64,000 bases of DNA from Ramlibacter tataouinensis (GTDB taxonomy: Bacteria; Pseudomonadota; Gammaproteobacteria; Burkholderiales; Burkholderiaceae_C): assembly GCF_027941915.1 (NCBI RefSeq), contig NZ_CP116009.1, positions 3,472,001 through 3,536,000 of the forward strand, given 5' to 3'. This document shows positions 1 through 12,686 of this stretch, piece after piece. Both the position numbers and the translations under genes were made by a program. The stretch's first letter is position 1. Each line of letters opens with the position of its first letter. The notes under the pieces are model-generated. The model saw only the letters and a list, made by a program, of their open reading frames with translations, had not been told where the DNA came from and searched no databases.

Positions 1-665
1 GCGACCACCTGGCCGGAATGGTCCCAGATCGGCGCGGCCACGCCGCCCATCTCGGGATGGTTCTCGGCCCGCGTCACCACATAGCCGTCCTGGCGCACGC
101 GCTCGAGGATGCGCCGCAACTCGCGCACGTCGGTGACGGACTGGGGAGTGCGCCGCTCCAGCTGGGCGGACAGGACGCGCTCGGCGACTTCTTCGTGATG
201 CGCCAGAATCGAGCGGCCCGTGGCGGTGCACCACGAGGGACTCAGCTGCCCGAGGCGGGTCTGCACCCCGATCGATTTCGGACTGACGACCTTGGCCACG
301 TAGACGATGTCCCCGGAGGGTTCGAGCACGGAAAGGTGCACCGTCTCCCCCGTTTCCGAGCGCAGCCGATCGAGTGTCGGCCGCGCGAGGTTCACCAGGT
401 CGAAGTCGCGCAGGGCGCTGGAGCCGATGCGCCAGGCCTTGAGGGTGAGCGCGTAGAGCCCGGTCGTGCGCGAGTAGGTCGCGAAACCGGTATTCACCAG
501 GGTGGACACCATCCGGTGCACCGTGCCCTTCGGCCGGCGGGTGGCCTGCACCAGCTCGGCCAGGCTCATCGGGCCCTCTCCGCGGCTGAGCGCCTCGAGC
601 ACCTCGAGCGTTCCGGCCGCCGCGGCAATGACCTGGTTGCGCGTGAACGCCGTCATGGTCTGCAT
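1..665 (-). CDS. IclR-family transcriptional regulator (3' end off window)
   Basis: Reading from an ATG at 665, the protein opens with MQTMTAFTRN and has an N-terminal winged helix-turn-helix (about residues 15-75, including RRPKGTVHRMV). An IclR effector domain follows, containing LDRLRSETGETVHLSVLEP and the stretch WCTATGRSILAH. AGGAG lies six bases before the ATG, supporting this start; a second in-frame ATG lies at 656. The C-terminus runs off the window after about 221 residues. It diverges from the LysR gene at 726. Two copies of the palindrome GTCTGCAwTGCAGAC lie at or near its start codon, and two more at 11377 and 11490. Autoregulation plus control of the island genes is therefore the likely role. 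The effector is unknown; an acyl-CoA or organic acid from the local pathway is inference. Confidence 0.9.
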   Translation of the reverse strand, partial: MQTMTAFTRNQVIAAAAGTLEVLEALSRGEGPMSLAELVQATRRPKGTVHRMVSTLVNTGFATYSRTTGLYALTLKAWRIGSSALRDFDLVNLARPTLDRLRSETGETVHLSVLEPSGDIVYVAKVVSPKSIGVQTRLGQLSPSWCTATGRSILAHHEEVAERVLSAQLERRTPQSVTDVRELRRILERVRQDGYVVTRAENHPEMGGVAAPIWDHSGQVV

Positions 666-725: not shown

Positions 726-1661
726 GTGTTGAAGGAATTCGCGTTGCATTTCGATCTCGCCGACCTGCGGCTCTTCCTGCACCTGGCCGAGTGCAAGAAC
801 CTCACGCGTGGCGCCAATGCCGCCGCGCTCTCGCCCGCCGCGGCCAGCAGCCGGCTGAAGGCGCTGGAGAACCAGCTGAACGCGCGCCTGTTCTATCGCG
901 ACAGCCGCGGCCTGGCGCTGACGCACGCCGGGGAGATGCTGCAGCGGCACGCCCGCGCCATCCTGCGGCAGGTCGAACACGTGCGCAACGACTTCCTTGC
1001 GCTCTCCAGCGACAGCGTCGGGCACTTCCGGATCTTCGCCAACACCACGCCGATCACGGAGACCCTGCCTTCGGTCCTGGCCGCCTTCATGAAGGATCGC
1101 CCGAACGTCACCGTCGACATCCAGGAGCGGAACACGCGTGAGGTCGTGCGCGGCGTCATCGACAGTGCGGCGGACATCGGGGTGCTGTCCGTCCCCGGCC
1201 CCTTCCATGCCGGGGACCTCCAGAGCCGGCTGTTCACCACCGACCGGCTGGTCTTGGCCGCGCCCGAAGGACACCCCCTGAGCGAGCGGGACACCGTGAG
1301 CTTCGAGGAATGCCTCAACATGCCGCACGTGGGCTTTCGCGAGAGCACGCTGCAAAGCTACGTCCTCGAGCAGGCCAGCCTCCTGAACCGCAAGCTGAGC
1401 ATGAGGGTGCTCATGAGCAGTTACGAGACCATGTGCAGCATGATCGCCGCGGGCGTGGGCGTGGGCGTGATGCCGGAGAGTTGCGCCCGCCGGTACATCC
1501 GGGCCGGGATGCCGCTGAAGGTGGTTCAGCTCTCGGACTCCTGGTCGCTGCGCGAGCGCCACATCATCTACCGCGACCTCGACGCGCTCCCGCTGTGCGC
1601 CCGGGCGTTCGTCGACGCCCTGATGGCGATGCAGGCCCCCGCGGAACGGGAGCACGCCTAG
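726..1661 (+). CDS. LysR-family transcriptional regulator
   Basis: 311 residues, the normal LTTR length. An N-terminal helix-turn-helix (about 8-66, LFLHLAECKNLTRGANAAAL) is followed by a periplasmic-binding-like effector domain (about 95-300, with SVLAAFMKDRPNVTVDIQE). The start is a GTG at 726; a TTG at 729 is possible. It diverges from the IclR gene and converges, one base apart, with the racemase gene. LysR genes accompany the act/acd genes of 3-sulfinopropionate degraders as I recall, so this is the likely pathway-specific activator, but that is inference. Its own operator is not identified; the GAATCCGGATTC palindromes at 4045 and 11255 are candidates. Confidence 0.93.
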   Translation: MLKEFALHFDLADLRLFLHLAECKNLTRGANAAALSPAAASSRLKALENQLNARLFYRDSRGLALTHAGEMLQRHARAILRQVEHVRNDFLALSSDSVGHFRIFANTTPITETLPSVLAAFMKDRPNVTVDIQERNTREVVRGVIDSAADIGVLSVPGPFHAGDLQSRLFTTDRLVLAAPEGHPLSERDTVSFEECLNMPHVGFRESTLQSYVLEQASLLNRKLSMRVLMSSYETMCSMIAAGVGVGVMPESCARRYIRAGMPLKVVQLSDSWSLRERHIIYRDLDALPLCARAFVDALMAMQAPAEREHA

Positions 1662-1662
1662 C

Positions 1663-2745
1663 TCAGGACGACCGGGCCCAGCGGGCGAGGGCCTCGTCGG
1701 CGGAGACCCTGCGCGACTCGGCGGCCACTGCCGGCCGCTCGCCGTTGAAACGCGGCGCGGAAGCCGGCACATGGCCGCCGCCCCAGCCGGCAAACGTGCC
1801 GCGGGAAGCCAGGTGGGCATCGTGGGGTGCCTCTGCGAGCGACAGCACGGGCGACACGCACGCATCGCTGCCGGCGAAGTGGCGGGCCCACTCGTCGCGG
1901 GTGCGGCTTGCGAAGACCTCTTCGAAGCGCTGGCGGATCGCCGGCCAGTTTCGTGAGTCCTTCCTGTCCGGCACGCTGCCCGCCAGGCCCAGGCGATCCA
2001 GCAGTTCTTGGTAGAACTGCGGCTCGAGGGCGCCGACGGCCATGAACTTGCCGTCGGCCGTGCGGTACGTGTCGTACCACGGGACGCCGCCGTCCAGCGG
2101 GTTGCTGGCACGCTGGTCCGTCCATTGCCCGAGCAGCAGCCGGCCGTAGATCATCGCCATCAGCGCGGCGCTGCCATCGACCATCGCGGCGTCCACCACC
2201 TGGCCGCGCCCCGAGGCCTTGACCTGCCACAGCGCCGCCAATACCCCGATGAGCAGGAACGCGCCGCCGCCCCCGAAGTCGCCGATCAGGTTGAGCGGTG
2301 GCACCGGCTTGTTTTTGCCGCCGATCGCATGCAGCGCGCCGGTGAGCGCGATGTAGTTGATGTCGTGGCCGGCCTGCTGCGCCATCGGGCCTTCCTGGCC
2401 CCAGCCGGTCATGCGGCCGTAGACCAGCTTCGGGTTCAGCTTCAGCGCGGCGTCCGGACCCAGGCCCAGCCGCTCCATGACGCCGGGGCGAAGGCCCTCG
2501 AGCAGCACATCCGCTTGCGCCACCAGTCGTTCGGCCGCCTCGCGCCCTGCGGTCGACTTCAGGTCCAGCTCCACCTGCATGCGCCCGCGACGCACCGCTC
2601 CCAGCGTGTCGCGTTCCGATGCACTGCCCGGTCGCTCGATCCGGACCACGCTCGCGCCCAGGTCGGCCAGCAGCATGCCGGTCCAGGGGACCGGACCGAT
2701 CGCGGCGAACTCCAGCACGCGCAGGCCTGACAGGACCCCGTTCAT
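1663..2745 (-). CDS. CaiB/BaiF-superfamily alpha-methylacyl-CoA racemase
   Basis: 360 residues, the length of AMACR/MCR-type racemases rather than of CoA-transferases (about 400). The racemase catalytic set is in place: His127 in AGHDINYIALTG, Asp156 in LIGDFGGGG and Glu241 in GALEPQFYQ, matching His126/Asp156/Glu241 of the mycobacterial enzyme. Such enzymes invert the 2-methyl centre of acyl-CoA thioesters. The ATG at 2745 overlaps the stop of the upstream CoA-transferase by four bases (ATGA), so the pair is translationally coupled. A racemase beside a desulfinase is unexpected, since 3-sulfinopropionyl-CoA has no chiral carbon. It hints at a 2-methyl-branched substrate (inference). Confidence 0.85.
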   Translation of the reverse strand: MNGVLSGLRVLEFAAIGPVPWTGMLLADLGASVVRIERPGSASERDTLGAVRRGRMQVELDLKSTAGREAAERLVAQADVLLEGLRPGVMERLGLGPDAALKLNPKLVYGRMTGWGQEGPMAQQAGHDINYIALTGALHAIGGKNKPVPPLNLIGDFGGGGAFLLIGVLAALWQVKASGRGQVVDAAMVDGSAALMAMIYGRLLLGQWTDQRASNPLDGGVPWYDTYRTADGKFMAVGALEPQFYQELLDRLGLAGSVPDRKDSRNWPAIRQRFEEVFASRTRDEWARHFAGSDACVSPVLSLAEAPHDAHLASRGTFAGWGGGHVPASAPRFNGERPAVAAESRRVSADEALARWARSS

Positions 2746-3989
2746 CGTGCGGCCTTCTGCGGATCGCAGGACACGACGCCTTCGGCTTCGAGGGCGTCGA
2801 TCTCGCGGTCGGTCAGCCTGGCGAGTTCACGCAGGACCCCGCGCGTGTCCTGGCCCAACCGGTGGCCCGACCAGCGGATGCGTCCCGGGGTGCCGGAGAG
2901 CTTGGGAACGATGCCCGCGAGCGTCACCTGCCCGAGGTCGTCGTCGGGTGTCCGGACCAGCATGTCGCGCGCCTTGAAGTGAGGGTCGTCGAAGATGTCG
3001 GCGATCGTGTAGATCGTCGTCGCCGGGACTTCGGCCGCTTCCAGCGTCGCTTTCAAGTCGGCCGCGTCACGGGTCATCGTCCAGTCCGTGATCAGGCGTT
3101 CGATCTCGGCTTCGTTCTGGTTGCGGGCCGCCTGCAGCGCGAACCGGGGGTCGGTGCCGAGTTCGGGACGTCCCATGGCCGATGCCAGCCGCCTGAACAC
3201 CGCATCGGCCAGTGCGGCGATGTGGATGTAGGTGCCGTCGCGCGTGGGGAACAGCGTGTTCGGTGCGCTGTTCGGGAGCCGGGGGCCTGCCCGCATCCCG
3301 ACAGTCCCCGTCTTCTCGAAGGCCGGAACGTGCGCTTCCATGAAGCTGAACGCCGACTCGAGCAGGCTGGCATCCACGCACTGGCCCTTGCCGGTCCGCT
3401 CGCGCGACAGGACCGCCATGACGGTGCCCAGCGCCGCATAGAGGCCGGTGATGTAGTCCGTCAGCGGCATGGCCACGCGCGACGGCGGCCGGTCGGGATC
3501 GCCGATGAGGTGGCGCAGGCCGCTCATCGCCTCGCCGATGACGCCGTAGCCCGGCCTCGCGCTGTACGGCCCGGTCTGCCCGTAGCCGCTGACGCGCGTG
3601 AGCACGAGGTCCGGCCTCAAGGCCTTCAGCTCCTCGTACGAAAGCCCCCACTTCTCCAGCGTTCCCGGCCGGAAGTTCTCCACGATGATGTCGAAACCCG
3701 GGATGAGCTGCTTGAGGACGTCGCGGCCCTTCGCCGTGCGCAGGTTCAGCGAAATGATCCGCTTGTTGCGCAGGATCGAGGCCGCATAGAGGGACTTGCC
3801 GTCCACGCTGTGGCCCAGCTCGCGGATCGTGTCGCCCTCCTGCGCCTCGACCTTGATGACCTCGGCGCCGAAGTCGGCGAGCAGGCGCGCACAGAACGGA
3901 CCCGACGCGGTGGAGCCCAGCTCCAGGACGCGGTAGCCCGTCAGCGGCCCGCTGGGCGCCGCCTCGGCGCAGGACGATGGATGGTTCAT
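2742..3989 (-). CDS. Class III (CaiB/BaiF) CoA-transferase, candidate succinyl-CoA:3-sulfinopropionate CoA-transferase
   Basis: 415 residues, typical of family III CoA-transferases. The N-terminal Rossmann part has GYRVLELGSTASGPFCARLLADFGAE-type sequence, and the catalytic aspartate is probably Asp178 in PLTDYITGLYAALGTV. RTGKGQCVDASLLES is the standard downstream motif. These enzymes move CoA from a donor such as succinyl-CoA to a carboxylic acid. It diverges from the desulfinase gene at 4240. In Variovorax paradoxus TBEA6 an enzyme of this family (Act) activates 3-sulfinopropionate, so the same role is proposed. The family is certain; the substrate is inference. A partial copy of the GAATCCGG motif abuts its start codon. 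Confidence 0.85.
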   Translation of the reverse strand: MNHPSSCAEAAPSGPLTGYRVLELGSTASGPFCARLLADFGAEVIKVEAQEGDTIRELGHSVDGKSLYAASILRNKRIISLNLRTAKGRDVLKQLIPGFDIIVENFRPGTLEKWGLSYEELKALRPDLVLTRVSGYGQTGPYSARPGYGVIGEAMSGLRHLIGDPDRPPSRVAMPLTDYITGLYAALGTVMAVLSRERTGKGQCVDASLLESAFSFMEAHVPAFEKTGTVGMRAGPRLPNSAPNTLFPTRDGTYIHIAALADAVFRRLASAMGRPELGTDPRFALQAARNQNEAEIERLITDWTMTRDAADLKATLEAAEVPATTIYTIADIFDDPHFKARDMLVRTPDDDLGQVTLAGIVPKLSGTPGRIRWSGHRLGQDTRGVLRELARLTDREIDALEAEGVVSCDPQKAAR

Positions 3990-4044
3990 TCCGGATTCAC
4001 TTGCTGTCGTTGCCGGGAATTCTGTCAGCGCAGGGCCTGCAGCT

Positions 4045-4056
4045 GAATCCGGATTC
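4045..4056. repeat. GAATCCGGATTC palindrome in the act/acd divergent region, copy A
   Basis: A perfect 12-bp palindrome in the 250-bp divergent region between the CoA-transferase and the desulfinase gene, 56 bases before the transferase ATG. It is followed by GCGGAACGCGGCCTTCG, closely matching the sequence after the second copy at 11255 (GGAA, GCGGC and TTCG are shared). It may be a regulator site or a dispersed repeat. Confidence 0.45.
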
Positions 4057-4239
4057 GCGGAACGCGGCCTTCGGCCCTGCCGAACGTTCGCCGCCGGGCT
4101 GGTCTTCCGCTGCGGTTAACGCTCTCTTCGGATTTGCGGAATTCCCTCGGAGAGCATGCCGCTCCTACACTGGCCTGAGGCAGCGCACGCCGACGACGGC
4201 TCACCGTCGCGCGGCCGCCGATTCCGCTCAAAGGCCTCC

Positions 4240-5457
4240 ATGTTCCAACTCTCCGCCGAACAACTCGCACTCCAGCAACGCAGCCGTGAACTCGCCCAGG
4301 CCCACTTCGCACCCAAGGCCGCGGAGATCGACCGCAGCGAGGAGTACCCCTGGGACAACGTCGCCCTTTTGCGCGACGCCGGTTTCATGACCATGACCCT
4401 GCCCAAGGACATGGGCGGCATGGGGCTCTCCTACTTCGACGCCGTGCTGGTCATCGAGGAGGTGGCCAAGGCCTGCGCGGCGATGGGCCGCATCACGGTG
4501 GACGCCACCATGGGTTGTGTCGGTGCCATCCGCAAGTACGGAACCAAGGAGCAGTTCCAGCTGGCGGCCGATCTCCTGAAGGCCGGCGACAAGCCTGCGC
4601 TGTGCATCACCGAGCCGCAGACGGGCAGTGCCGCCACCGCCATGACGACGCGGGCCGACCGCAAGGGCGATCACTACGTGCTCAACGGGGAGAAGTACTG
4701 GATCACCGGAGGCGGCGTTTCGCGGCTGCACCTCGTCTTCGCCCGCGTCTTCGACGACGGCGTGGAGCAGGGGATCGGTGGATTCATCGTGGTGCGCGAC
4801 GGCGACAAGCCCGACGGTTTCATCGTGGGTGAGCGCATCTACGCGATGGGCGTGCGCGGCATCCCGGAGACCCACCTGCACTTCAAGGACCTGCTGGTCC
4901 ACAAGTCCATGCTGCTGATGCCGCCGGAGGGCCTCCGGCGCGGCTTCGCTTCCCTGATGACGGCCTACAACGCCCAGCGCGTGGGCGCCGGCACGGTCGC
5001 CCTGGGCATCGCCCAGGGCGCTTTCGAGGAGGCAATCGCTCGGGTCAAGGCGCGCGAGCAGTTCGGTCGTCCGATCGCCGAGTTCCAGGGGCTGCAATGG
5101 ATGCTCGCGGACATGTCGGTGCAGCTCGAGGCCGCGCGCCTGCTCATCTGGCGTGCTGCGCTCAGCGGCGGCGAGTTCCCCGACATGGACAAGGCGGCGC
5201 AGGCGAAGATCTTCACCGCGGAGATGGCGTTCAAGGTGTGCAGCGATGCGCTGCAGATGTTCGGCTCCTCGGGCTACGGCCGGAACCTTCCGATGGAGCG
5301 GCATGTCCGGGACGCCCGCATGTTCACGATCGCGGGCGGCACGGCCCAGATCCTTCGCACGCAGGTGGCCAGCGCCATCCTCGGCATGAAGCTGCCGCAG
5401 ACGCGCATGGGCTACGCCGAGCGCCACCCGGAGCTGAAGTCGGAAGGGCCGCTGTGA
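4240..5457 (+). CDS. acd: 3-sulfinopropionyl-CoA desulfinase (acyl-CoA dehydrogenase fold)
   Basis: 405 residues with the full ACAD layout: N-terminal helical domain, central beta domain with CITEPQTGSA and EKYWITGGG, and C-terminal FAD/CoA domain with REQFGRP. The catalytic base is absent from both known sites: YEGT is replaced by AGGT (Gly366), and the IVD-type glutamate position is Gln246 (TAYNAQRVG). Arg84 (KACAAMGRITVD) and Gln246 fall exactly where 3-sulfinopropionyl-CoA desulfinase of Advenella mimigardefordensis DPN7 has its diagnostic Arg84 and Gln246, and the overall sequence resembles that enzyme as I recall it. The reaction would hydrolyse the C-S bond of a sulfinyl-CoA to acyl-CoA plus sulfite without net electron transfer. 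The ATG at 4240 is chosen because MFQLSAEQ is the family N-terminus. The stop overlaps the next GTG. Confidence 0.85.
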   Translation: MFQLSAEQLALQQRSRELAQAHFAPKAAEIDRSEEYPWDNVALLRDAGFMTMTLPKDMGGMGLSYFDAVLVIEEVAKACAAMGRITVDATMGCVGAIRKYGTKEQFQLAADLLKAGDKPALCITEPQTGSAATAMTTRADRKGDHYVLNGEKYWITGGGVSRLHLVFARVFDDGVEQGIGGFIVVRDGDKPDGFIVGERIYAMGVRGIPETHLHFKDLLVHKSMLLMPPEGLRRGFASLMTAYNAQRVGAGTVALGIAQGAFEEAIARVKAREQFGRPIAEFQGLQWMLADMSVQLEAARLLIWRAALSGGEFPDMDKAAQAKIFTAEMAFKVCSDALQMFGSSGYGRNLPMERHVRDARMFTIAGGTAQILRTQVASAILGMKLPQTRMGYAERHPELKSEGPL

Positions 5458-6446
5458 AAGCGATCGTTTGTCATGCTTACGGGCCGCTGGAAGCGCTGCG
5501 CTGGGAGCGCGCGGAGCTGCCGCAGGTCGGACGCGGCGAGGTGAAGATCGCCGTCCACGCGGCCGGCGTCAACTTCGCCGACACCTTGAAGGTGCAAGGC
5601 AAGCACCAGGTCAAGCCGCCGCTGCCCTGGACCCCGGGCGCCGAAGTCGCCGGCCTGGTTCTGGAGGTGGGCGAGGGCGTCGAGCAGTTGCAGGCGGGCG
5701 ACCGGGTGCTCGGGGTTCCGGACGACCAGGCCGGTGGCTACGCCGAAGCGATCGTCCTGCGGGCGGATCGCGTCCTGCGCCTGCCGGCCGGACTCTCCAT
5801 GGAGAAGGCGGCGGCGCTGCCCGCCGCCTATGGAACCGCGCTCTACGCGCTCAAGCAGCGCGGCCGGGTCGCCGCCGGCGACCGGGTCCTGGTCCTCGGC
5901 GCGGCGGGCGGGGTCGGGCTCGCGGCCGTGCAGGTGGCGGTGGCGATGGGGGCACGGGTCATTGCCGCTGCCAGCACCCCGGGCAAGCGCGACCTCGCAT
6001 CGCAGCATGGTGCTTCCGCCTGCGTCGACTACACCAAGCCGGAGTGGAGAAAGGAAGTGCTGGATGCCGCCGGGCCGGCCGGCATCCAGGCGGTATTCGA
6101 TCCGGTGGGCGGCGACCTGTTCGACGAAGCGGTCCGCACGGTCGGTTGGGACGGACGCTATCTCGTAGTCGGATTTGCCGCCGGCCGCATTCCGGAACTC
6201 AAGATGAACCATCCCCTGGTCAAGGGCTACGACGTGGTGGGAATCCGCTACGACGTCTGGCGCGACCGGTTCTGGGCCGAAGCGCGCGAGAACCTGGAGC
6301 AGGTTCTCGTCTGGTGCGCCGAAGGAAGGGTACGGCCGGTCGTCGCGCGCACCGAGCCGCTGCCAAGGGCCGTCGAAGCGCTCATGGCCATCGCGGGGCG
6401 CGAAGTCGTCGGGAAACTGGTCCTGACGGCTCCGGCCGCCGCATGA
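5454..6446 (+). CDS. NAD(P)H:quinone reductase-like MDR-family oxidoreductase
   Basis: 330 residues of the zinc-free medium-chain dehydrogenase/reductase superfamily. A GroES-like N-terminal domain (AGVNFADTLKVQGK) precedes a Rossmann domain with the nucleotide loop GAAGGVGLAAVQVA (about residues 140-155). The GTG start at 5454 overlaps the desulfinase stop by four bases (GTGA), so the two are co-translated. It precedes acuI by 10 bases. Members reduce quinones, enones or 2-enoyl thioesters with NADPH. In this operon reduction of an alpha,beta-unsaturated acyl-CoA is plausible but unproven. Confidence 0.85.
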   Translation: MKAIVCHAYGPLEALRWERAELPQVGRGEVKIAVHAAGVNFADTLKVQGKHQVKPPLPWTPGAEVAGLVLEVGEGVEQLQAGDRVLGVPDDQAGGYAEAIVLRADRVLRLPAGLSMEKAAALPAAYGTALYALKQRGRVAAGDRVLVLGAAGGVGLAAVQVAVAMGARVIAAASTPGKRDLASQHGASACVDYTKPEWRKEVLDAAGPAGIQAVFDPVGGDLFDEAVRTVGWDGRYLVVGFAAGRIPELKMNHPLVKGYDVVGIRYDVWRDRFWAEARENLEQVLVWCAEGRVRPVVARTEPLPRAVEALMAIAGREVVGKLVLTAPAAA

Positions 6447-6456
6447 GGAGAGACAC

Positions 6457-7443
6457 GTGAAGGCTTATCTGATCGACAAGGACCCGGCCGGCAAGGCGAG
6501 CGGCCGCTGGACCGCGCTGGAGCCGGGCCAGCTGGATCCCGGGGAACTGACGCTGCGGGTGCTCTATTCGAGCGTCAACTACAAGGACGCGCTGGCGGCG
6601 ACCGGTGCCGGCAAGATCATCCGCCGCTTCCCGTGCGTGGGTGGAATCGACCTGGTCGGCGAGGTCACCGAGAGCCGGGATTCGAAGTTCAGGCCGGGCG
6701 ACAGGGTCATCGCCACCAGCTTCGACCTGGGCGTCGCCCACCACGGCGGATTCGCGGAGCAGGCGCGGGTGCCGGCCTCCTGGGCCGTGCCGCTTCCGGC
6801 CGGCCTGACGCCGTTCGAATCGATGGCGCTGGGGACCGCCGGCTTCACGGCGGGACTTGCCATCGTCCGGATGGAAGAGAACGGGCTCGCGCCGGGGAAC
6901 GGGCCCGTGGTGGTGTCCGGCGCGACCGGCGGCGTGGGCAGCCTTGCGATCAGCATGCTGGCCAACCTGGGCTACGAGGTGGTGGCACTGACGCGCAAGA
7001 GCCAGGAGGAGGCCTATCTGAAGGAGCTCGGGGCCACGCGCATCCAGTCCAGCGCCGATCTGAATCTCGACCAGGTCCGGCCGATGGAAGCCGCGCAGTG
7101 GGCGGGCGCGGTCGACAACGTCGGAGGCGCCGTGCTGCACTGGATGCTGGCCACGATGAAGCAGGCAGGGACCGTCGCGAGCATCGGCAATGCCGGCAGC
7201 GTCGAGCTGCACTCCACGGTGTTTCCCTTCATCCTGCGCGGCGTCAGCCTGCTGGGCGTGGACTCCGGGTACATGGGATTCCCGACGCGCGCGAACGTGT
7301 GGCAGCGGCTGGCCACGGATCTGAAGCCCACGTGCCTGGCGCGGATCACGAGGACGGTCGACTTCGCGGATCTGGCGCCGGTCTTCGACGACTTCATCGC
7401 AGGCCGCGCCAAGGGAAGAACCGTCGTCCGGATCGGCGGCTGA
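6457..7443 (+). CDS. acuI: AcuI/YhdH-type acrylyl-CoA reductase (NADPH), copy 1
   Basis: 328 residues, the usual AcuI/YhdH length. The N-terminal part has the family stretch SSVNYKDALAATGAGKI and PCVGGIDLVGEV; the cofactor loop is VSGATGGVGSLAISMLA. AcuI reduces toxic acryloyl-CoA to propionyl-CoA in dimethylsulfoniopropionate and 3-hydroxypropionate metabolism. The GTG start has a good GAGGAGA ribosome site ten bases after the preceding gene, and the gene lies in the acd operon. A paralogue lies at 10179. Two copies in one island suggest that acrylyl- or methacrylyl-CoA is a pathway intermediate or by-product (inference). Confidence 0.88.
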   Translation: MKAYLIDKDPAGKASGRWTALEPGQLDPGELTLRVLYSSVNYKDALAATGAGKIIRRFPCVGGIDLVGEVTESRDSKFRPGDRVIATSFDLGVAHHGGFAEQARVPASWAVPLPAGLTPFESMALGTAGFTAGLAIVRMEENGLAPGNGPVVVSGATGGVGSLAISMLANLGYEVVALTRKSQEEAYLKELGATRIQSSADLNLDQVRPMEAAQWAGAVDNVGGAVLHWMLATMKQAGTVASIGNAGSVELHSTVFPFILRGVSLLGVDSGYMGFPTRANVWQRLATDLKPTCLARITRTVDFADLAPVFDDFIAGRAKGRTVVRIGG

Positions 7444-7464: not shown

Positions 7465-8250
7465 GTGACCTTCTCCATGCCGGGCATCGAAGCGGTGGTG
7501 ATGTTCCTGGCCTGCGCCGCCGTCGCATCGCTGCTGCAGAACCTGACCGCGTTCGCCTTCGGTTTGGTGCTGCTGGGAGGGGTCGAGCTGTTCGGCATCG
7601 TTCCGCTGGCGGACGCCGCCAATGCGTCGATGGTGCTGGCCCTGGTCAACTGCCTCGCGTTCTTCTGGGGCGACAAGCAGCCGCTGCCCTGGCATCAGGT
7701 CCGGCACGTGCTCTGGGCCGGTTCCATTGGCGTGGCCGCCGGCCTGGCGCTGCAGGTTTGGCTCAGTGCGAATGCGGCGCAATGGTTCCGGTTGCTGCTC
7801 GGCGTGACGGTGATCCTGAGCGCCGCCAACCTGCTGCTGGCCCGGACCGTGCGGCCCGAGCCGTCGCCGCCCCGGACCTTCGCTTTCTTCGGTGCGCTCT
7901 CGGGCCTGCTCGGCGGGCTGTTCGCCACTTCGGGACCACCGATCGTCTACCACATGCTGCGCCAGCCCTTCGATCCCCTGCAGATCCGGCGCTGCCTGGC
8001 CCTCATCTTCGCGGTCAACAACGGCTTTCGTCTCCTGCTCGTGGCCGGGACCGGACGCTTCTCGCAGCTTTCGCTGCTGCTGTGCTGCGTCGCGCTGCCG
8101 GTTGCGCTCCTTGTCACGGTGCTGTGCAGGCGCTATCCCATCAGCATCCCGCGCAGCCGGCTCGCATGGATGACCAGTGCGCTGCTGTGCGTGGCAGGTG
8201 CTTCACTCGTGCTCTCGGCGGCACGGGATGCGCTGCGTCCCCTCATCTGA
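7465..8250 (+). CDS. TauE/SafE-family sulfite/organosulfonate exporter
   Basis: 261 residues with about eight hydrophobic segments in two repeats. Each repeat carries the TauE-type glycine/proline turn, the second being GGLFATSGPPIVYHML. The GTG at 7465 is the first start; an ATG at 7477 is an alternative. TauE/SafE proteins of the inner membrane export sulfite, sulfoacetate or related anions. Its place in the acd operon, 21 bases after acuI, fits disposal of the sulfite made by the desulfinase, which strengthens the sulfinate reading of the whole cluster. The exact substrate is inference. Confidence 0.87.
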   Translation: MTFSMPGIEAVVMFLACAAVASLLQNLTAFAFGLVLLGGVELFGIVPLADAANASMVLALVNCLAFFWGDKQPLPWHQVRHVLWAGSIGVAAGLALQVWLSANAAQWFRLLLGVTVILSAANLLLARTVRPEPSPPRTFAFFGALSGLLGGLFATSGPPIVYHMLRQPFDPLQIRRCLALIFAVNNGFRLLLVAGTGRFSQLSLLLCCVALPVALLVTVLCRRYPISIPRSRLAWMTSALLCVAGASLVLSAARDALRPLI

Positions 8251-11531: not shown

Positions 11532-12686
11532 TTGGATTTCGCCCTCACCGACGACCAGCAGATGATGGTGGACGCAGCCCAGCGGGTGAACGAGAAATTC
11601 GTTCAGCCGCTGCTCGCCTCCCACGACCAGTTCAAGGGCCTGCCCAAGCAGGCCGTGCTCAGCGTGCTCCAGAAGGCCGCGGACCTAGGCTTGACCGCTG
11701 CGCGCATCCCGGAAGAGGGGGGTGGGGCCGGCCTGAAGATGCTCGATTACGGCCTGATGGTCGAGCAGCTTCCACCGAGCATCATGTTGATGGTGCAGCC
11801 CCACGAGGCGACGAGCACGCGCATCTACTTCGGCGGCACCGACGAGCAGCGCGAACGGTTCCTGCCCGACCTGATCGCCGGCCGCAAGGTGGGCGCCACC
11901 GGCAGCACGGAGCCTGACCATGGCTCGGATCCGCGCGGCATCAAGACGACGGCGACGCCGGATGCCGAGGGCAACGTCACCCTGACGGGGCGCAAGCAGT
12001 GGATCTCGAACGCGCCGGTCTGCGACCTGATCTACGTAACCTGCCGCATGCCGGATGGCGCCGGAGGGTTCAGGATGGCGCGCGTCCTGGTCGACCGGAG
12101 CGAGACGCCGTTCGAAACGCGGGAACTCGAGATGCACGGCCTGTGCCAGGCGCCGCTCGGTGAAGTCCTGTTCGATGGCAACAAGGTTCCGCTGCGCAAC
12201 GTGTGTCCCGAGAGCGCCGACACCGCGCGCCTGCTGACCATCACCTGGCTCGCCAACCGTCCGGCTGTCGGCCTGATGGCAGTCGGCCTGGCCCAGCGGG
12301 CACTGGACATGGCCCGCGAGTATGCGGGCGTGCGCAAGCAGTTCGGCAAGCCGATCGGGGCCTTCCAGGCCATCCAGAACGATCTCGCCGACATCGAGAC
12401 GCTGGTCGTGAGCGCGCGCCTGACCTGCTACCACGCGCTGGCCGCCATCGATCGGGGCCAGAGGGCCAACGGCCTGTCGGCCATGGCCAAGCGATATGCG
12501 GTCGATGCATCGGACAAGGCGATCGCCATCGCGATGCGCGTCCATGGTGCGATGGGTCTGAGCCGGGAGCTCGGCCTCGAACAGATGGCGCGAGACGTCC
12601 GGTCGCTGACCGTCCCGGACGGTACGCCGGGCATCCTGGCCTTGATCCAGGGTCGTGAGCTCACGGGCCTGGATCCATTCCGCTGA
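11532..12686 (+). CDS. Acyl-CoA dehydrogenase-like protein with Asp at the catalytic Glu position
   Basis: 384 residues with ACAD motifs: GATGSTEPDHGSDP and GRKQWISN in the middle, VRKQFGKPIGAFQ in the C-terminal domain. The usual YEGT becomes PDGT, so the base would be Asp363. The alternative IVD-type position is Asn242 (WLANRPA). The TTG start at 11532 is preceded by AGGAG at 7-8 bases and no better start is in frame. It diverges from acuI2-bug and carries an IclR-type palindrome in its leader. It probably oxidises an acyl-CoA in the island pathway and passes electrons to ETF. The Glu-to-Asp change may shift its substrate or slow it. It lacks the desulfinase signature. Confidence 0.85.
   Translation: MDFALTDDQQMMVDAAQRVNEKFVQPLLASHDQFKGLPKQAVLSVLQKAADLGLTAARIPEEGGGAGLKMLDYGLMVEQLPPSIMLMVQPHEATSTRIYFGGTDEQRERFLPDLIAGRKVGATGSTEPDHGSDPRGIKTTATPDAEGNVTLTGRKQWISNAPVCDLIYVTCRMPDGAGGFRMARVLVDRSETPFETRELEMHGLCQAPLGEVLFDGNKVPLRNVCPESADTARLLTITWLANRPAVGLMAVGLAQRALDMAREYAGVRKQFGKPIGAFQAIQNDLADIETLVVSARLTCYHALAAIDRGQRANGLSAMAKRYAVDASDKAIAIAMRVHGAMGLSRELGLEQMARDVRSLTVPDGTPGILALIQGRELTGLDPFR

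Follow-up and report, generated by a model that had tools for sequence, protein, structure and literature searches.

In a 64,000-nucleotide stretch of the Ramlibacter tataouinensis genome (hereafter the window), the gene acd very probably encodes a desulfinase belonging to the family of 3-sulfinopropionyl-CoA desulfinases, to judge from its sequence. The encoded protein, Acd, falls in a separate clade of that family, in which the desulfinase gene is accompanied by an alpha-methylacyl-CoA-racemase-type gene and by a family III CoA-transferase gene, here termed CoAT_B. The desulfinase function is already annotatable and was not overlooked. What stands out is the clade linked to a racemase, with at least four genomes, and the novelty lies in its gene context.

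The window Acd scores 637.9 bits against the NCBIfam model NF042439 '3-sulfinopropanoyl-CoA desulfinase' (cut-off 600). Its closest structures are those of the crystallised desulfinase of Advenella mimigardefordensis DPN7 (5af7/5ahs), which is 69-72% identical to it; in a search of PDB sequences 5af7 reached 637 bits and the next entry 239 bits. In a tree that included DPN7, 90 desulfinase rows were split with support of 100 from paralogue rows and from rows with Glu or Thr at position 246. Closer grouping with Glu-containing dehydrogenases, which the initial annotation of the gene as a desulfinase had named as evidence against itself, was not what the tree gave, the window Acd grouping with DPN7 instead. 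The predicted desulfinase function is thus well supported by the grouping with DPN7, by 5af7/5ahs standing far above other PDB entries and by the passed family model. The expectation that automatic annotation would call the gene an ordinary acyl-CoA dehydrogenase did not hold, as NF042439 recognises Acd and five of the seven plasmid records with an Acd match (none above 76% identity) bear the desulfinase name. The structure predicted for the window Acd, from 21 sequences, has a predicted local distance difference test score (pLDDT) of 86.7.

The DPN7 protein (5af7) aligns with the window Acd without gaps over 394 residues (285 of them identical), residue 1 on residue 1, so that the ATG at 4240 is a likelier start than that of a longer open reading frame from 4156. 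Counted from this ATG, Arg84 (AMG-R-ITV), Gln246 (YNA-Q-RVG) and Gly366 (TIA-G-GTA) have identical counterparts at the same three numbers in DPN7, which bears out the numbering proposed earlier for Arg84 and Gln246 and extends it to Gly366. Position 246 is presumably the catalytic Glu site of isovaleryl-CoA-dehydrogenase-type enzymes, and the residue check confirmed the earlier observation that both known catalytic-base sites lack Glu, with Gln246 at one and Gly366 (AGGT) at the other. An AGG motif is named for the desulfinase in the available text of PMC8360864.

All 89 desulfinase-family rows among the matches listed (the window, eight loci and 80 listed loci, with a few genomes present twice) carry R84, Q246 and G366, which exceeds chance agreement. 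R84 or Q246 was found in none of 18 other rows with the acyl-CoA-dehydrogenase fold, among them seven paralogues from the window's own genome (taken from 28 other matches). In the 11 more distant family relatives position 84 is always Leu and position 246 is Glu (seven) or Thr (four), while Gly366 is present throughout, so Gly366 alone is not diagnostic and R84 and Q246 together are. The reading as an ordinary acyl-CoA dehydrogenase was rejected on the evidence of the residues, the family model, the tree and the closest structures; a variant of that explanation, in which the catalytic Glu lies elsewhere in the protein, is most improbable, there being no Glu at either position, while the desulfinase is indicated by the best matches as well as by the family model and the tree. 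Four relatives with the same fold (L025-L028, from genomes G056, G135, G292 and G222) have Thr246 and Gly366 and neither usual Glu, and each of these genomes also encodes a Glu246 relative (L018-L020, L022), which lies about 2 kb away in G056. A further gene for this fold at 11532-12686 of the window scores weakly with the desulfinase model (165.5 bits, cut-off 600).

A mixture-model tree of 41 chosen rows placed the window Acd in one clade (support 100/100) with the desulfinases of the Burkholderiales metagenome-assembled genome (MAG) REEB41 (L029) and of Piscinibacter sakaiensis (L041), and with a second copy in G136, which appears to be Acidovorax sp. MR-S7. This identification, like that of G053 below, comes from loci of the named genomes, whose contig places coincide and whose proteins are identical. 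In the same tree this clade joined a 25-row group containing DPN7 with support of 98/95; that group on its own had 92/85, below the program's star threshold. G136 carries two desulfinases, one canonical and one of the clade (85%). The clade has T51, T90, L113, T128 and R268 where 84 other listed rows have G, N, V/I, A and Y/F. At 1e-150, Acd was matched in three of 399 genomes of the order, namely the window's own and two at 69% and 62% identity, and CoAT_B was matched at 1e-120 in 19 of 399 family genomes, with at least 76% identity, besides the window's genome, only in G136 and in G053, which appears to be P. sakaiensis. The locus scan listed 80 of 589 relatives, and the 85% copy of G136 is not among them. 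Desulfinases of Streptomyces coffeae (L047) and of two planctomycete MAGs (L052, L054) are nested among betaproteobacterial ones, which may reflect transfer or, for the MAGs, contamination.

The conserved surroundings of the clade comprise the LysR gene, the racemase-type gene (518-586 bits) and CoAT_B (688-732 bits), which accompany Acd in all four clade clusters (Table 1). The IclR-family regulator at the window's edge has a 374-bit counterpart in L029. The stop codon of CoAT_B overlaps the start of the racemase-type gene (ATGA), and the divergent region between CoAT_B and acd is likely to be a control region with a putative regulatory role. CoAT_B is 74-78% identical to its counterparts in the sister clusters, but identity falls to 33-37% with the remaining transferases in the comparison, among which are three Act proteins (33-35%). 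Asp occupies the same column in all nine aligned rows, and we take this residue (D178 in CoAT_B) to be the catalytic Asp of family III CoA-transferases. CoAT_B reached no named NCBIfam equivalog (best score 264.5 bits, cut-off 750); it probably activates the sulfinate. Two CoAT_B paralogues (64% and 58%) lie about 20 kb upstream (L148:5634-6830 and G000:C1:3453953-3455155), in the vicinity of genes for aldehyde dehydrogenase, aminotransferase and carboxylase; an open frame there was reported with an internal TGA.

Table 1. Positions in the window of acd, its signature codons and the neighbouring features
Feature	Position	Strand	Basis
IclR-family regulator, cut by window start (whole gene L123:7844-8665)	1..665	-	PF01614, 111.8 bits
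LysR regulator	726..1661	+	Pfam; counterparts of 454-529 bits in three sister clusters
Alpha-methylacyl-CoA-racemase-type protein	1663..2745	-	MCR of M. tuberculosis (1x74), 408 bits
Family III CoA-transferase CoAT_B, D178 at catalytic-Asp position	2742..3989	-	PF02515, 405.7 bits, over cut-off
250-bp divergent intergenic region CoAT_B/acd	3990..4239	.	Coordinates, sequence
Acd, 3-sulfinopropionyl-CoA-desulfinase-type protein, 405 aa, acyl-CoA-dehydrogenase fold	4240..5457	+	
Arg84 codon	4489..4491	+	Residue check, position computed from ATG at 4240
Gln246 codon	4975..4977	+	Residue check against relatives
Gly366 codon, within AGGT (YEGT in most acyl-CoA dehydrogenases)	5335..5337	+	Residue check
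Quinone-oxidoreductase-type medium-chain reductase	5454..6446	+	TIGR02824, 229 bits, under cut-off 296.8
Acrylyl-CoA-reductase-family protein (YhdH/AcuI type)	6457..7443	+	TIGR02823, 425.8, over cut-off 297.25
TauE/SafE-family membrane protein, candidate sulfite exporter	7465..8250	+	PF01925, 59.2, over cut-off 32.6

Over 335 residues the racemase-type protein shares 57% identity with the MCR of M. tuberculosis (1x74), and in all four clade clusters it keeps the columns His126, Asp156 and Glu241, which we take to be the catalytic residues of the racemase. The four cluster racemases are 67-72% identical to one another, compared with 56% for the next racemase-type protein of the window's genome. 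Because a racemase points to a stereocentre on carbon 2, its presence suggests an alpha-branched substrate. On this gene context the clade may, tentatively, have been recruited, along with a racemase and a CoA-transferase of its own, into a pathway that handles 3-sulfinoacids with an alpha branch, for example 2-methyl-3-sulfinopropionate derived from 3-mercaptoisobutyrate. Acd would then carry out the same desulfination on (R/S)-2-methyl-3-sulfinopropionyl-CoA (3-sulfinoisobutyryl-CoA), yielding isobutyryl-CoA and sulfite, and the racemase would be there to cope with an acid supplied as a mixture of enantiomers or in the wrong form. Such a branched substrate is a possibility on the doubtful side: 3-mercaptoisobutyric acid is a plant metabolite reported for asparagus (in the available part of PMC9502545), but family III proteins of the racemase type are common, and all four genomes encode one or more others above 300 bits. 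There is about an even chance, instead, that the substrate is plain 3-sulfinopropionyl-CoA and the racemase a bystander from another acyl-CoA pathway, as the high identity to DPN7 and the identical signature would suggest; against this, racemase, transferase and desulfinase are inherited together in all four clade clusters, with overlapping reading frames in the window, and G136 keeps a canonical copy in addition. Both substrates are compatible with, and are forms of, the desulfinase assignment.

The distribution of partner genes bears on both substrates. Among the 80 listed loci (3.6-17 kb of DNA each; thresholds of 400 bits for Act, 150 for Mdo, 300 for the racemase and 400 for CoAT_B), 29 contained Act and 11 contained Mdo, two had the racemase with CoAT_B and 47 had none of these, L058, L062 and L063 being among these 47 of the loci in L029-L108. 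The two loci with racemase and CoAT_B both belong to this clade and lack Act and Mdo, and the pair is absent from the other 78, which favours a branched substrate. The 47 loci without Act, Mdo or racemase show that partners vary widely, which counts against over-reading any single arrangement and favours the plain substrate. Act and Mdo are not beside the desulfinase in any of the four clade clusters, and the first 14 kb of the window contain no match of at least 400 bits to the L032 Act protein. The substrate may therefore not be 3-sulfinopropionyl-CoA itself, given that these neighbours differ from those of Mdo-Act-Acd clusters.

The thiol dioxygenase Mdo was also sought genome-wide. The window's genome (one contig, completeness 100) gave no match to the canonical Mdo protein, which was found in eight of 13 genomes searched, none to a second Mdo-like protein (found in two of four genomes) and none to PF05995. 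The last of these had matches in 34 of 44 genomes but is poor evidence for absence, because even Mdo genes adjoining Acd score about 24-31 bits against its cut-off of 23, and the protein queries were used instead. The same queries found no thiol dioxygenase relative in G299, which is, however, a metagenome assembly; Mdo relatives are present elsewhere in the genomes of G136 and G053. PF07847 (PCO_ADO) had no match in any of four genomes, but its controls were silent as well and nothing follows from it. The missing dioxygenase in the window's genome and G299 also argues against the branched substrate, since the compound would then have to be supplied as the sulfinate or depend on some unrelated enzyme for its oxidation; in the window's species the pathway would start from the sulfinate.

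G136, which has both kinds of desulfinase, offers a further point in favour of the branched substrate. A run of genes on one strand of its contig C109 (L151:6598-13683) encodes a TctC receptor, a CoA-transferase, a racemase-type protein, an Act-like protein, an Mdo-like dioxygenase and an enoyl-CoA-hydratase-like (crotonase) protein, the last identified by reading its open reading frame. This run, about 22 kb from the canonical desulfinase of G136 and lying in a 16-kb stretch without a desulfinase, would link a racemase-type gene with thiol oxidation within one genome. The 3-hydroxyisobutyrate-dehydrogenase-like and enoyl-CoA-hydratase genes near it could instead belong to thiodipropionate breakdown, by analogy with Variovorax paradoxus TBEA6 as described in the available text of PMC6370202.

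Downstream, acd overlaps the quinone-oxidoreductase-type gene by four bases (GTGA), followed by gaps of 10 bases to the YhdH/AcuI-type gene and 21 bases to the TauE gene. This tight spacing, together with the YhdH/AcuI-type protein passing its family model, would fit an elimination of sulfite from the sulfonate 3-sulfopropionyl-CoA to give acryloyl-CoA, which the downstream acrylyl-CoA-reductase-family enzyme would reduce. This alternative is very unlikely, given that the reductases were not found in the DNA around the sister clusters, that the YhdH/AcuI-type protein misses the cut-off of the AcuI equivalog NF051456 (340.6 against 440) and that Acd has no base to abstract the carbon-2 proton. 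The TauE/SafE-family protein had no NCBIfam match at 1e-10. Genes for a molybdopterin oxidoreductase, a ferredoxin-like open reading frame and a DmsC-type anchor lie upstream and end 195 bp before the window; the oxidoreductase (Fe4S4) and the anchor were assigned by Pfam and the ferredoxin cysteine motifs by eye, with no NCBIfam cut-off reached, and the trio is SoeABC-like in its layout only. These genes (L123:2354-7806) adjoin a LysR gene similar to YeiE (324 bits, YeiE cut-off 480). The SoeA-like oxidoreductase had matches at 1e-100 in G299 and G053 and none in five of five congeners; Acd had none at 1e-100 in the three congeners drawn and CoAT_B none at 1e-120 in five of five. This pattern would fit their acquisition as one block.

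In the proposed desulfination pathway, a short carboxylic acid with a sulfinate on carbon 3 would be taken up or made, and CoAT_B would move CoA onto its carboxylate. The acyl-CoA would enter Acd, where Arg84 would hold the sulfinate and no catalytic Glu would be available to start ordinary dehydrogenation, and the C-S bond would be broken without net electron transfer to give the desulfurised acyl-CoA and sulfite. The TauE-type protein could export the sulfite, or the SoeABC-like enzyme could oxidise it, and the clade racemase would adjust the carbon-2 configuration before or after desulfination. Family membership, residues and gene arrangement are directly established for Acd, and the desulfination reaction would be that described in the literature for its relatives; the neighbours' roles and the identity of the substrate we infer. 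Some observations weigh against this scheme. The replacements G51T, N90T, V113L, A128T and Y268R, at sites otherwise fixed or nearly so, could reflect a change of substrate or activity. The window's genome has no detectable Mdo, so it lacks the usual source of 3-sulfinopropionate (3SP). In the sister-cluster DNA compared, neither the two reductases nor the TauE gene turned up close to the desulfinase, which places them outside the conserved module, and the SoeA-like gene had no match at 1e-100 in G136.

We know of no other MCR-type racemase beside a desulfinase, and a literature search for racemase with 'sulfin' returned only papers unrelated by title and the start of the abstract. According to the available text of PMC5373536, the DPN7 Acd releases sulfite from 3SP-CoA and its gene adjoins LysR and family III CoA-transferase genes; it belongs, however, outside the clade with T51, T90, L113, T128 and R268, and the window differs in having a racemase and another transferase type nearby and no Mdo. 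V. paradoxus TBEA6 (AcdA/Act/Mdo), compared here from its description and not from sequences, likewise combines a desulfinase with a CoA-transferase gene but makes 3SP with Mdo, and the word racemase does not occur in the main text of PMC6370202 as available. The racemase-accompanied paralogous clade offers a way, open to testing, of deriving a new substrate from gene context. If a branched substrate is confirmed, desulfination would extend beyond 3-mercaptopropionate, which might matter for what becomes of plant thiol acids and of alpha-methylated polythioester monomers (PMC9137767, available part).
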